Shown here in pieces: positions 22,971 through 36,201 of a stretch of DNA of 51,764 bases (positions are counted from its first letter, which is position 1; the number at the start of each line of letters is the position of its first letter). The position numbers were made by a program, and so were the translations under genes. The stretch lies in NCBI GenBank assembly GCA_947473125.1, contig CANJDH010000024.1:1-51764 (forward strand), written 5' to 3'. The notes below the pieces were generated by a model. The model had not been told where the DNA came from and did not search any database. It saw only the letters and a list, made by a program, of their open reading frames with translations. This DNA comes from Burkholderiales bacterium (GTDB lineage Bacteria > Pseudomonadota > Gammaproteobacteria > Burkholderiales > JAEUOS01).

Positions 22971-23319
22971 GGGCTATCGCATAGTGAAATGACTGGTCGC
23001 CCCGGCTTCCTCATGTCGAAGCCATGGTCGATTGTTGGTGCCAGACGGCAGACTCACCGGTACCGCCGACCCGGGGCAAGCGCCGTACCCGTATTCGCGA
23101 TCGATTATCTCACGCGCAATTCATGCGCTATCGGTCGCTCTTGTCATATACCAACGAGCCATCAGCATGGTCGCACAGGGAGCCTCAGTGGGCCGGCGAC
23201 CTGCCGCAGCTATAACAGAAAAAGTCATTGGTAATCAATCGCTTGGCATATTTTTTCACTTGACGACTTCAATTGCGCCACGCTACCATTTGCCCTGTCG
23301 TTTCTCTAAGGGCAAGCCC
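22971..23319. other. 349-bp gap between divergent methyltransferase and mltD
   Basis: No convincing gene. It contains the mltD promoter near its right end. In many proteobacteria gloB occupies this position; no clear glyoxalase II sequence (THxHxDH) was seen on either strand. Confidence 0.6.
23260..23289 (+). promoter_or_regulatory. Predicted sigma-70 promoter of mltD
   Basis: TTGACG (23260-23265), 18-base spacer, TACCAT (23284-23289), 30 bases before the ATG at 23320. Confidence 0.5.
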
Positions 23320-24823: not shown

Positions 24824-25834
24824 TCAGGTCGGCATCGGTTGCAGCGGCGCCAGATGCCCTGCAAACAGCCGTGCCACGCGCTGCCATGAATACTGCAATG
24901 CATGCGCGCGTGGCGCATCCGCGCCAATCTCCAGAGCAGTGATCGCGGCGCGCCATAAATCACGATCCAGCACGCCTGCGCCGCTCTGACCCACCACATC
25001 CTGCGGCCCGGGTACCGGAAAAGCGGCGACCGGTACTCCACAAGCCATGGCCTCAAGCAACACCAGGCCGAATGTGTCGGTACGGCTCGGAAATACGAAT
25101 ACATCGGCACTTCGGTACCAGGGCGCAAGTTCGGCATGTGCTTTTGGGCCGGCAAAGTGCACGTCGGGGTAGGCACGTCTGAGCAGTTCGAGTTGGGGGC
25201 CACCACCCACCACCCATTTTTCTCCCGGAAGGTCCAGATCGAGGAACGCCCTGAGGTTTTTCTCGATCGCGACGCGCCCGACGTACATGAACACCGGGCT
25301 TCTCCGTTCGATGGCACGTTCACCGTATGGCTCGAAACGTGCGATGTCAACTCCCCTGGGCCAGATCACCGTGTGACCGATGCCTCGCGCCAAAAGCTCA
25401 TGTTTCATCGACAGTGTCGGCACCATCACGCGCACGGCCCGGGAGTGGAATCGCCTGAGCCAGGCATACGTCAAACCGACAGGAACCGGCACTCGAGCGC
25501 GCACGTACTCGGGAAAACGCGTGTGATAGGCCGTTGTAAAACACAAGCCCCGCTCCAGACATACGCGCCGCGCCGCCATGCCGAGCGGTCCTTCGGTCGC
25601 GATATGCACCGCATCCGGAGCAGCATGGGCGATGGCATCACGCACCCCGCGATACGCAAACAGCGCAAGGCGAATTTCCGGATAGGTCGGGCACGGCAGA
25701 GTACGAAACATCATCGGCGTGATGGTGCGCACGTCATGGCCAAGATGCACCAGTTCCTGGGTCAGAGTCGACAAGGTGATGACCACGCCGTTGACCTGCG
25801 GCGGCGCGGCGTCGGTTACCAGTACGATCCTCAC
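24824..25834 (-). CDS. GT4 family glycosyltransferase, Agt-like (glycolipid synthesis)
   Basis: A 336-residue GT-B enzyme. VRIVLVTDAAPPQVNGVV opens the N-terminal domain. The C-terminal domain has VGRVAIEKNLRAFLDLDLPG, VVGGGPQLELL and the donor-binding DTFGLVLLEAMACGVPVAA, where the first acid of the EX7E motif is Asp, as in several diacylglycerol and mannosyl transferases. The start is GTG at 25834, overlapping the TGA of the upstream PlcP-like gene as GTGA, so the two are translationally coupled. By this linkage I infer that it glycosylates the diacylglycerol released by PlcP, like Agt in phosphate-starved marine bacteria. The sugar is unknown. Confidence 0.75.
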   Translation of the reverse strand: MRIVLVTDAAPPQVNGVVITLSTLTQELVHLGHDVRTITPMMFRTLPCPTYPEIRLALFAYRGVRDAIAHAAPDAVHIATEGPLGMAARRVCLERGLCFTTAYHTRFPEYVRARVPVPVGLTYAWLRRFHSRAVRVMVPTLSMKHELLARGIGHTVIWPRGVDIARFEPYGERAIERRSPVFMYVGRVAIEKNLRAFLDLDLPGEKWVVGGGPQLELLRRAYPDVHFAGPKAHAELAPWYRSADVFVFPSRTDTFGLVLLEAMACGVPVAAFPVPGPQDVVGQSGAGVLDRDLWRAAITALEIGADAPRAHALQYSWQRVARLFAGHLAPLQPMPT

Positions 25835-26652
25835 GAAACCACTGCCTCGCGATCGGCCGTTGCCGTGGCCAGCGTGGCCGCCTGCCCGCCAATCCGGTTC
25901 CATTCGATGATGTGCAGCGCCCCGTCAAAGGTTTCCGCCAGGGCCGTCAGGCTTTCCACCCAGTCGCCATCATTGCAATACACGATTCCGTCAATGTCGC
26001 GAATTTCCGCCTTGTGGATATGCCCGCACACCACCCCGTCGAGTCCGCGGCGTCGCGCCTCGTTGGCCAGGGCGGCTTCGAAATTGCTGATGAAGTTGAC
26101 CGCGTTCTTCACCTTGTGCTTGAGGTATTGCGACAGCGACCAATAGGGAAATCCCAGGCGCACCCGCAGATGGTTGTACCAGTGGTTCAGTTTCAGGATC
26201 AGGGTGTAGAGGGTATCGCCCAGGTAGGCGAACCATTTGGCGTGCTGAATCACCCCGTCAAACAGGTCCCCGTGGATCACCAGAAGTTTGCGTCCGTCGG
26301 CCGTGATGTGGACCGCCTCGCCCGCCACCTCGATGCCGCCGAAGGTGACTTCAAGGTAGTCGCGCAGCGGTTCGTCATGATTGCCGGGGATGTAGATCAC
26401 CCGCGTGCCCTTGCGTGCCTTGCGCAACAGCTTCTGCACCACGTCGTTATGCGATTGCCGCCAATACCAGCTTTTTTTCAGCTGCCACGCGTCAACGATG
26501 TCACCGACAAGATAGAGCGTGTCCGATTCATTGTGCTTCAGGAAATCGATCAGGTACTCCGCCTTGCAACCGGCGGTTCCGAGATGGACATCCGATATCC
26601 ACAGGGTCCGGTAATGGCAGTTCGCGTCAGGCGGCAGGTCGGAAGGTCGCAC
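25831..26652 (-). CDS. PlcP-like metallophosphoesterase (phospholipase C, LpxH-like fold)
   Basis: A 273-residue calcineurin-like phosphoesterase. Metal-site motifs: WISDVHLGT (19-27), LVGDIVDAW, IPGNHDE, VIHGDLFD and CGHIHKAE. Segments such as KKSWYWRQSHNDVVQKLLRKARKG, HWYN, LSQYLKHKVKNAVNFISNFE and YCNDGDWVES fit the PlcP group, often annotated as UDP-2,3-diacylglucosamine pyrophosphatase. In Sinorhizobium and marine bacteria PlcP degrades phospholipids to diacylglycerol under phosphate limitation. Here it overlaps an Agt-like gene and has a Pho box with a spaced -10 upstream, supporting PlcP over LpxH. The start is GTG at 26652 with a weak ribosome site. Confidence 0.78.
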   Translation of the reverse strand: MRPSDLPPDANCHYRTLWISDVHLGTAGCKAEYLIDFLKHNESDTLYLVGDIVDAWQLKKSWYWRQSHNDVVQKLLRKARKGTRVIYIPGNHDEPLRDYLEVTFGGIEVAGEAVHITADGRKLLVIHGDLFDGVIQHAKWFAYLGDTLYTLILKLNHWYNHLRVRLGFPYWSLSQYLKHKVKNAVNFISNFEAALANEARRRGLDGVVCGHIHKAEIRDIDGIVYCNDGDWVESLTALAETFDGALHIIEWNRIGGQAATLATATADREAVVS

Positions 26653-26679
26653 GTTTCATTTCTGGAGTGCACATTTCCG

Positions 26680-26713
26680 ATTGTGACCAGCCGCAATGAC
26701 GCAGCCGTGACAA
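26680..26713 (-). promoter_or_regulatory. Pho box and -10 element upstream of the plcP-like gene
   Basis: Minus strand TTGTCAC-GGCT-GCGTCAT (26696-26713): two 7-bp units at the 11-bp period of PhoB sites. Ten bases later comes CACAAT (26680-26685), a fair -10, the spacing found in PhoB-activated promoters. It lies between the ppk stop and the plcP-like start. Confidence 0.65.
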
Positions 26714-26714
26714 A

Positions 26715-28892
26715 CTACTTGCGTCGCAGCTTGAGCGCGGAGCGAATGCCCTTTAGCCGCAGACGCGGCGGCTCGACCGTCTTGACCAGCGTGGACAGCA
26801 GGCCTTCCTGCGCACTTGCATCGCCACGCGACTGGCGGTTGTACACCCCGCTGGCGTCGAGTTCCCAGACACCTGCGTCACGCCGCAAATAGGGCGCGAG
26901 GCCTTCCGTATAAATGCGCTTCTTGAATTTGGCGTCAAGAATCGGAAAACAGATTTCCACACGCCGGAAGAAATTGCGATCCATCCAGTCCGCGCTGGAC
27001 AGGCGAACGTCGTGGTCGCCGCCGTTTTCAAACCAGAAAATCCGGCTGTGCTCGAGGAACCGTCCTATCGCCGACACCACGCGGATATTCTCCGACAGGC
27101 CCGCACGACCCGGCACCAGGGCGCACGCGCCACGTACGATCAGATCCACCTTGACGCCCGCGGCGCTGGCCGCATAGAGTGCGTTGATGACGCGGGGCTC
27201 TTGCAGCGCATTCATCTTGGCGATGATGCGCGCCTTCCTGCCCTCCTTGGCCGATTTGATCTCGCGGGCAATGGCGGCAAGCACGTTGTCGTGCAGGGTG
27301 AACGGGGACTGCCAGATGTGGTTGAGCTTGAGTACCTTCGAGAGCCCGGTGAGCTGGCGAAACACCTCGTTGGCATCGTCGCACAGGGCTTCGTTGGCGG
27401 TAATCAGGCCGAAATCGGTATAAAAGCGCGCCGTGCGCGGGTGGTAATTCCCTGTGCCCAAATGCACGTAACGCCGCAGGCGCCCGCCCTCGCGCCGCAC
27501 CACCAGGCACATCTTGGCGTGGGTCTTGTGCCCTACCACCCCGTAGACCACGTGCGCGCCGACTGCCTCAAGGCGCCCGGCCCAGTTGATATTGGTTTCT
27601 TCATCGAAGCGGGCCATCAACTCGACCACCGCCGTCACTTCCTTGCCGCTCTTGGCCGCCGTGATCAGAAGTTCCATCAATTCGGACTCCGACCCGGTGC
27701 GATAAATGGTTTGCTTGATGGCAACCACGTGCGGGTCATGGGCTGCCGCACGCAAATAGTCGATCACCGGCTCGAATGACTCGAACGGGTGGTGCAGCAA
27801 GATGTCGCCCTGCCGGATCATCTCGAACACATCGCCCGATTCCCCCAGCAGTGCGGAATGACTGGGCTGGAATGGCAGGAATTTGAGGTCGGCGCGCTCG
27901 CACATGTCTGCCACCTGCATCAGCCGCGCCAAATTGACCGGGCCGTCGACCCGAAACAGGTCGCCCTCTTCAATCTCAAATTGCTTCAGCAAAAAGCGCA
28001 CCACCGCATCGGGGCATTCCTGCGCCACTTCAAGACGCACCGCGTCGCCAAAATGCCGCTGCGTCAATTCGCCCTGCAGCGCCTGGCGCAGGTTGGTCAT
28101 TTCCTCTTCATCGACGAACAGGTCGCTGTTGCGGGTGGCGCGAAACGCGTGGGCGCCGCGCACTTCGATGCCGGGAAACAGCTCACCGACAAAGCGCATC
28201 AGTACCGACGACAGCAAAATGAATTTGTCACGGCCAAATTTGTCCGCTGGCAGCGCAATCACGCGCGGCAGCACGCGCGGTGCCTGAACAATGGCCAGCT
28301 CCGCCATGCGGCCAAACGCATCCGTGCCGGACAGCTCGACCACGATATTCAGGCTTTTGTTGAGAACCCGCGGAAACGGGTGCGCAGGGTCCAGCCCGAT
28401 CGGCGTCAACACCGGCAGGATCTGTTCTTCAAAATACCGTCGCGCCCAGGCTTCGAGCTCGCCGTTCCAGTCGGGACGCGGGTAGATCGATACGCCCGCC
28501 TTCGCCAGGGCCGGCATGATCGTGTCATTGAGCAGGGCGTACTGGCGCGCGACCAGGGCGTTTGCACGGAGCCTGACCTCCGACATGACTTCGGACGCGG
28601 CCATGCCATCCACATCCCGATGCGAGGGGTCGCTGCGCATCTGCTCGCGCAAGCCGGCTACCCGCACTTCAAAAAACTCGTCCAGGTTCGAGCTGACGAT
28701 GCAAAGGAAGCGCAGGCGTTCCAACAGTGGCATCGACGCATCTGCCGCCTGTGCGAGAACCCGTTCGTTGAACGCGAGCACACCCAATTCCCGGTTGAGC
28801 AGCGGCAACTCTCCTGGCGGCTTTGCTGCAGCGCTCCGGGCGACGGGTTGTTTTCGTTTTGGTTCCACTGGCTTATCTTGGCTTGCCGGCAT
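26715..28892 (-). CDS. ppk: Polyphosphate kinase 1
   Basis: Makes polyphosphate reversibly from ATP. About 725 residues, near the usual 690. The N-terminal domain begins LLNRELGVLAFNERVLAQAAD. The catalytic half has the phospho-accepting His segment VVGHKTHAKMCLVVRREGG and RRYVHLGTGNYHPRTARFYTD, then a conserved C-terminal domain (CFPILDAKFKKRIYTEGL). The first 30 residues are a Lys/Pro/Ala-rich extension. The ATG at 28892 lies inside a near-perfect Pho box and lacks a ribosome site, so translation may start further in, for example at the GTG at 28868. It is divergent from ppx. Confidence 0.95.
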   Translation of the reverse strand: MPASQDKPVEPKRKQPVARSAAAKPPGELPLLNRELGVLAFNERVLAQAADASMPLLERLRFLCIVSSNLDEFFEVRVAGLREQMRSDPSHRDVDGMAASEVMSEVRLRANALVARQYALLNDTIMPALAKAGVSIYPRPDWNGELEAWARRYFEEQILPVLTPIGLDPAHPFPRVLNKSLNIVVELSGTDAFGRMAELAIVQAPRVLPRVIALPADKFGRDKFILLSSVLMRFVGELFPGIEVRGAHAFRATRNSDLFVDEEEMTNLRQALQGELTQRHFGDAVRLEVAQECPDAVVRFLLKQFEIEEGDLFRVDGPVNLARLMQVADMCERADLKFLPFQPSHSALLGESGDVFEMIRQGDILLHHPFESFEPVIDYLRAAAHDPHVVAIKQTIYRTGSESELMELLITAAKSGKEVTAVVELMARFDEETNINWAGRLEAVGAHVVYGVVGHKTHAKMCLVVRREGGRLRRYVHLGTGNYHPRTARFYTDFGLITANEALCDDANEVFRQLTGLSKVLKLNHIWQSPFTLHDNVLAAIAREIKSAKEGRKARIIAKMNALQEPRVINALYAASAAGVKVDLIVRGACALVPGRAGLSENIRVVSAIGRFLEHSRIFWFENGGDHDVRLSSADWMDRNFFRRVEICFPILDAKFKKRIYTEGLAPYLRRDAGVWELDASGVYNRQSRGDASAQEGLLSTLVKTVEPPRLRLKGIRSALKLRRK

Positions 28893-28908
28893 GACAGATT
28901 GATGACAA
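28891..28908 (-). promoter_or_regulatory. Pho box overlapping the predicted ppk start codon
   Basis: Minus strand TTGTCAT-CAAT-CTGTCAT, 13 of 14 positions of the doubled CTGTCAT consensus with a 4-base spacer. Its last two bases are the AT of the ppk ATG. Confidence 0.7.
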
Positions 28909-28927: not shown

Positions 28928-28945
28928 GTGACACACCATTGTCAC
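28928..28945. promoter_or_regulatory. GTGACA-N6-TGTCAC palindrome between ppk and ppx
   Basis: GTGACA-CACCAT-TGTCAC, a perfect 6-bp inverted repeat in the divergent ppk/ppx promoter region. The same architecture occurs at 34905-34922. Each half resembles half a Pho unit but in opposed orientation. Confidence 0.45.
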
Positions 28946-28991
28946 ACCGCGTAAGCACAATCTGGGATCGCTGCCTGGTTTTTCAACCCCC

Positions 28992-34862: not shown

Positions 34863-34904
34863 GATCTATGCCTTGAAAAAATCAGCGAAGCTTATCTTCC
34901 TTGG

Positions 34905-34922
34905 GTGACACGCGCATGTCAC
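34905..34922. promoter_or_regulatory. GTGACA-N6-TGTCAC palindrome between sixA and the binding-protein gene
   Basis: GTGACA-CGCGCA-TGTCAC, a perfect 6-bp inverted repeat in a divergent promoter region, with the same halves and spacing as 28928-28945. Confidence 0.45.
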
Positions 34923-34966
34923 ACGCCGGCCCTACATTCGCTTCCTTTGTTTGAGGCGGGTGTGCA

Positions 34967-36112
34967 GTGTCGATGAAATCGCTCATGTTTGGTAGTGCCC
35001 GTTGGCTTGGCATGATGGTAACCGTGCTTGGTATTCACGCCAACGCTGTTGCGGCAGGAAACGACATTGTCGTCGGGCAACTCCTGGATCAATCGCCGGC
35101 ATGGCTGGAGGCCGGGCGCGACTACGCGGCAGGCGCCAAGACCTATTTCGACGTGGTCAACAGTACCGGCGGCGTCAACGGGCGCCGGATCGTATACCTG
35201 ACGCGCGACACCAATGGCACCGCCGCCGAGCTAAAGCAGGCTGCGGCCGCCCTCCTGGTCGATTCGAGGGCAGATCTGTTCGGGCCGATAGGTGACACGG
35301 CGGCAGGCGCTCTGATCGACCTTGGCAGCCCGGAACTCAACGCAGCCATCGTCTTTGCGCCGCTAACCGGCCTCAAATCCCCAAAGGCATCGGTATTGAC
35401 CCTGCGGGCCGGCTATGAAGACGAGGCGCTTGAACTGGTGCGCCACTTCAAGGGGCTGGGATTGACATCCTTCTGCCTCGTTACCGCCGCCGGTGAAACC
35501 CAGTCTGCAGCTGCGCGCGCCGTGCGTGGAGCCGTTGCTTCGACCAATCGCACTCTCGCCTACGAAACCAGCATCGCTGCAGGGGGTGGCGACGCCAAAG
35601 CCGCTGCGTCCCTGGTCTCAAGCCGTCGGCCGCAGGCCGTGATTGTCCTGGGCGACACCTCGGTTCTCGGCAGTTTCGCGCGCGAATTCCCGTTCAAGCA
35701 GTTGGGCATTTTGCTCGGCAGCCTGTCGCTGGTCAATCACACCGCGTTGATGGAGATATCCGGCCCGCAAGTGGCGAAGGGAATCGTATTGACCCAGGTC
35801 GTACCCTCGCCGCAGCGCCTCGGTGTGCCGATTGTTCTGGAACACGTCAAGGCCATGACAAAATTTCGCGACGAGCCGCCATCGCACCTGACCCTCGAAG
35901 GCTACATGGCGGCCAAGGCCCTGGTCGAATCGCTGCGCGGCGCGCTGCCGGGGCGAGCACTGCGCCGCGAAGACGTCGCCGCCGCGTTGATCCGCAACCA
36001 TTCCCGCACTGCCGTCAACCCCGCCGCAACCGACATGGGAATGGCCAACGCCGCCGGAACCCGTCTGGTGGACCTCACCATGGTGCGTGGCGACGGCACC
36101 CTGATGCGTTGA
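34967..36112 (+). CDS. Periplasmic LivJ-like substrate-binding protein (orphan)
   Basis: A 381-residue binding protein of the branched-chain amino-acid/amide type (Peripla_BP_6). A signal peptide (MVTVLGIHANAVAAG) precedes DIVVGQLLDQSPAWLEAGRDYAAGAKTYFDVVNSTGGVNGRRIVYLTRDT; the second lobe contains PQAVIVLGDTSVLGSFAREF and the third part LEGYMAAKALVESLRGA. No permease or ATPase of this type adjoins. It sits between sixA and pstS, so it may feed a distant permease or act as a sensor ligand protein. The GTG at 34967 has GAGG ten bases upstream; ATG at 34973 is the alternative. Confidence 0.8.
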   Translation: MSMKSLMFGSARWLGMMVTVLGIHANAVAAGNDIVVGQLLDQSPAWLEAGRDYAAGAKTYFDVVNSTGGVNGRRIVYLTRDTNGTAAELKQAAAALLVDSRADLFGPIGDTAAGALIDLGSPELNAAIVFAPLTGLKSPKASVLTLRAGYEDEALELVRHFKGLGLTSFCLVTAAGETQSAAARAVRGAVASTNRTLAYETSIAAGGGDAKAAASLVSSRRPQAVIVLGDTSVLGSFAREFPFKQLGILLGSLSLVNHTALMEISGPQVAKGIVLTQVVPSPQRLGVPIVLEHVKAMTKFRDEPPSHLTLEGYMAAKALVESLRGALPGRALRREDVAAALIRNHSRTAVNPAATDMGMANAAGTRLVDLTMVRGDGTLMR

Positions 36113-36161: not shown

Positions 36162-36201
36162 TTGTCATATGGCTGAAATATTGCTGTCATAAAGTGCCAT
36201 C
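36162..36201 (+). promoter_or_regulatory. Tandem Pho boxes upstream of pstS
   Basis: TTGTCAT-ATGG-CTGAAAT-ATTG-CTGTCAT-AAAG-TGCCATC: 7-bp units at 11-bp steps, three good and the last degenerate. They lie 38-77 bases before the pstS ATG. PhoB binds such arrays as tandem dimers. Confidence 0.85.

Follow-up and report, generated by a model that had tools for sequence, protein, structure and literature searches.

The stretch of DNA analysed here (the window, 51,764 nucleotides in length) carries a metallophosphoesterase gene commonly annotated as LpxH-like, preceded by ppk and followed by a glycosyltransferase gene, and it raises the question of whether this gene pair has a PhoB-activated promoter of its own and of which enzyme its first gene encodes. 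From sequence comparisons, the region 26713–26680 (minus strand) is very probably a PhoB-activated promoter driving plcP-agt, a gene pair predicted to act in lipid remodelling, inside a larger ppk-plcP-agt cluster that shares a pho locus with pstS, pstC, pstA, phoU, and phoBR, with phoB-phoR present within the window. The features concerned are the following:

26707..26713, minus strand: Pho box repeat 1, TTGTCAC (sequence; 34-mer matrix score of 19.0)
26696..26702, minus strand: Pho box repeat 2, GCGTCAT (sequence; matrix; register shared with relatives)
26680..26685, minus strand: -10-like element, CACAAT (sequence; 10-nt gap to repeat 2, kept in orthologues)
25831..26652, minus strand: plcP-like metallophosphoesterase gene (273 aa, GTG start)
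24824..25834, minus strand: agt-like GT4 glycosyltransferase gene (336 aa; start GTG overlapping the stop of plcP, GTGA)
26715..28892, minus strand: ppk, polyphosphate kinase 1 (start at the ATG usually taken)
28891..28908, minus strand: stronger Pho box at the ppk start, TTGTCATCAATCTGTCAT (possible second promoter feeding plcP-agt)

Read on the minus strand, ppk closes with the stop codon TAG, which ends at 26715, and after one base the plcP Pho box begins, its two repeats separated by a 4-base spacer (GGCT), with the 7-4-7 spacing exact and 11 of the 14 positions matching CTGTCAY-N4-CTGTCAY. The hexamer CACAAT, with four of six matches as a -10 element, follows after a gap of 10 nt, and 27 bases separate it from the GTG at 26652. 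The letters and coordinates of the box and the 10-base gap to CACAAT reported in an earlier note on this DNA proved correct on sequence check, whereas the 28 bases counted there between CACAAT and the GTG had to be amended. No sigma-70 -35/-10 pair was found at this promoter by consensus search, and the 18-mer TTGTCAC-GGCT-GCGTCAT occurs a single time in the 4.88-Mb genome. A 15-codon out-of-frame ATG reading frame (26627–26674, minus strand) overlaps the plcP GTG start.

Scanning with the bare consensus CTGTCAY-N4-CTGTCAY, with three mismatches allowed, gave 15 matches in the window versus 10.2 expected, and 562 matches genome-wide versus 511 for a reversed-pattern control; by this measure, the plcP box is not outstanding, and the genome scan is too unspecific. 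A 34-column matrix covering the box, the 10-nt gap, and the -10 element was built from plcP upstream sequences of relatives of the order and of 80 named genomes, trained only on families other than that of the window, and its ranking covered the window and a 400-kb sample of the same genome. The matrix check suggested in the earlier note came out in favour of the site, which ranked fourth among 103,462 window positions, with its score of 19.0 being reached at one of 798,680 positions of the 400-kb sample. When this same-genome background was divided into 60-base bins, 1 of 13,280 reached 19.0, the 99.9th percentile being 11.3. Training on dinucleotide-shuffled upstream sequences (20 trials) lowered the score of the plcP site to 7.3–13.2, versus 20.0 with the real sequences, figures to be read with the selection of the training sites by consensus and -10 in mind, a bias towards such sites that the shuffled-training and box-only controls meet only in part. 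Judging from the window and 400-kb scores, about ten equally good positions would be expected in a genome-wide scan blind to location, so that location and conservation carry the argument; for its location, the plcP site is clearly more than chance. A sequence-only covariance model run genome-wide, whose first pass scores only part of the candidates, returned one weak match.

The top seven window positions by matrix score were all located before ppk (22.7), ppx (21.6), the gene at 34967 (20.0 and 13.6, on the two strands), plcP (19.0), and pstS (18.2 and 14.5), and the next position scored 12.3. The ppx promoter (28928–28961, plus strand) reads GTGACAC-ACCA-TTGTCAC-N10-CACAAT and is divergent from ppk. 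Palindromic Pho half-sites (GTGACA-N6-TGTCAC), matched by the matrix on both strands, were found at 34889–34938 before the gene at 34967, whose 381-aa protein had no NCBIfam match at 1e-20, and three Pho repeats at 11-bp spacing lie upstream of pstS (36162–36190, plus strand). The top-scoring Pho box in the window, at 28891–28908 (minus strand), runs into the ATG commonly assigned as the start of ppk (TGTCATG), and the true start of ppk is therefore probably located further downstream, possibly at a GTG around 28868. In addition, a strong Pho-like repeat array with no obvious phosphate gene adjoining was observed elsewhere in the genome, in L165, 7218–7251, minus strand (G000:C42, ~23218–23281).

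Across the order, orthologous plcP genes carry Pho repeats at the same place and on the same strand. In 43 non-redundant promoters, the best coding-strand box upstream of plcP matched a mean of 11.1 of 14 positions, versus 9.3 for the opposite strand and 8.9 for shuffled sequences, and boxes of at least 12/14 were present on the coding strand in 15 of them, the corresponding counts being 0 for the opposite strand and 0.1 for shuffled sequences. The gap was analysed without circularity in 32 promoters, with boxes picked by their repeats alone and the -10 element ignored: TATAAT likeness peaked only at a gap of 10 (2.66 matches versus a background of 1.27), where a terminal AT was found in 44% versus 6%. 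The comparison of related species proposed in the earlier note thus showed box, strand, and 10-nt gap to be conserved among plcP orthologues. The plcP promoters of Paraburkholderia and Burkholderia are almost identical to that of the window, as in Paraburkholderia locus L109, where ATGTCACGGCTCCGTCAT-gcagcaatgg-CGCAAT is nearly the same as TTGTCACGGCTGCGTCAT-tgcggctggt-CACAAT in the window. Relatives from the window's own family present three or four repeats, more degenerate, before plcP, with -10-like hexamers recognised by eye 10 nt past the last repeat (TCCAAT, TCAAAT, TTCAAT, and TGAAAT). In loci L033–L036, from the same family, the repeats are weaker and differently composed (scores of 7.9–12.4), so that the site is better matched in Burkholderia than within the window's family. 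Certain plcP orthologues, such as those of L051, L054, and L058, have no box.

Matrix and conservation together support the claim that a local PhoB-type promoter with a 10-nt gap precedes plcP-agt. The accompanying claim, that the pair is a separate operon free of read-through from ppk, is not supported: the Pho box before ppk outscores that of plcP, and a search of the interval between the two genes gave no terminator-like hairpin (RNA fold z-score of -0.27), making read-through into plcP-agt probable. A Pho box before ppk was also detected in the same-family loci L066 and L067, which have the same gene order. Only 8 of 80 loci, from the window's family or from Thiobacillus-like genomes, have ppk upstream of plcP, and no ppk was found in the plcP locus of Paraburkholderia L109. 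As the plcP box occurs both with and without ppk upstream, the local promoter belongs to plcP-agt itself, and the pair is probably transcribed from this promoter and by ppk read-through, both predicted to be PhoB-linked.

A further step would be to regard ppk-plcP-agt in this lineage as one PhoB-controlled unit joining polyphosphate synthesis to lipid remodelling, its PhoB promoters, upstream of ppk and of plcP, being nested, a tentative proposal to which we give somewhat less than an even chance. If true, a single switch would govern both the phosphate released from phospholipids and its deposition as polyphosphate. Among the titles listed by a literature search, none was specific to a Pho box before ppk or ppx in Burkholderia. 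We consider it improbable that the repeats match by chance and that plcP-agt owes its transcription solely to read-through from the Pho-type promoter of ppk, as orthologues without upstream ppk keep the promoter with place and spacing unchanged and the matrix score is reached by only 1 in ~800,000 positions, even if the near-chance result of the bare consensus scan, the stronger box at ppk, and the ppk-plcP interval in which no terminator was found all fit such an explanation.

The identity of the first gene was approached through its protein family. The best named NCBIfam match of the window protein was UDP-2,3-diacylglucosamine diphosphatase, with 46 bits for a cut-off of 134, and against the LpxH model TIGR01854 it reached 42.9 bits, below the curated cut-off of 190.35. 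The true lpxH of the same genome is located at G000:C2:70449-71141 (241.6 bits, over that same cut-off), and no Pho box was found upstream of it, the best matrix score within 600 nt being 0.7. A true LpxH was present in 19 of 21 genomes, in which the PlcP-like proteins scored at most 52.4 bits. A 13-protein tree split PlcP and LpxH into separate groups with 100/100 support. In addition, 76 of 80 loci have agt directly downstream of plcP. The LpxH identity was rejected on the sub-cut-off scores, the separate true lpxH, and the tree split, and the window gene groups with PlcP on the basis of this exclusion, the agt neighbour, and the published gene order, being thus a putative PlcP. That it could encode an additional LpxH serving lipid A synthesis, with an incidental Pho box, is very unlikely: the NCBIfam match and the fact that sequence search retrieved no solved relatives other than LpxH (E ~3e-4) speak for it, and the much higher score of the true lpxH elsewhere, the separation of the two groups, and the agt neighbour in most loci speak against it. 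The preference for PlcP over LpxH expressed in the earlier note is therefore backed by the separate true lpxH and the protein tree, whereas the Pho box, invoked there as an argument, bears on it only indirectly.

Direct repeats of about this size are bound by regulators of the OmpR family, but it is hardly to be expected that a member other than PhoB uses the repeats here in its place: the matrix that detects the plcP site also picks out the promoters of pstS, ppk, and ppx in the window, and the repeat units match CTGTCAY with a period of 11 bp. With PhoB as the putative regulator, its phosphorylated form would activate the promoter at 26713–26680 (minus strand), where the two 7-base repeats, 11 bp apart, would replace the -35 element, and the weak -10 element CACAAT, 10 nt downstream, would make RNA polymerase efficient only with PhoB bound. 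This promoter would drive the overlapping plcP-agt pair (GTGA), to whose transcription read-through from the ppk Pho promoter would probably add. When cells are starved of phosphate, PlcP would release diacylglycerol from membrane phospholipid, and Agt would glycosylate it to a phosphorus-free glycolipid; PhoB binding, start site, induction, and enzyme activities are all predictions from the sequence.

Similar arrangements have been described in other bacteria. In Pseudomonas aeruginosa, a Pho box is predicted in the promoter of plcP-agt (PA3219-PA3218; PMC8528852), with plcP likewise in an operon with a glycosyltransferase gene, whereas the window operon follows a ppk with its own Pho box in a pst-phoU-phoBR locus. 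Pho boxes are also predicted in plcP clusters of marine bacteria (PMC4796936), the type-2 clusters having plcP and then agt in the same order; the window cluster differs in being betaproteobacterial and in its other neighbours. In Pseudomonas putida BIRD-1, PlcP is PhoBR-dependent (PMC5082522). In Methylosinus trichosporium OB3b, deletion showed the same plcP-agt gene pair to be required for the glycolipid GADG (PMC9239053), although this organism belongs to the Alphaproteobacteria and "Pho box" is absent from the text of that paper. Within the literature collection searched, no paper was specific to plcP in Burkholderia.

In conclusion, plcP-agt in the window is an operon of the ordinary Pho type whose PhoB-type promoter is internal, an arrangement already known elsewhere. 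The common LpxH-like annotation is corrected to PlcP on independent evidence, and the plcP-agt Pho promoter with its 10-nt gap to the -10 element shows conservation over a large part of the order (Burkholderiales and kin), which leads to the testable prediction that many betaproteobacteria remodel their lipids when starved of phosphate.
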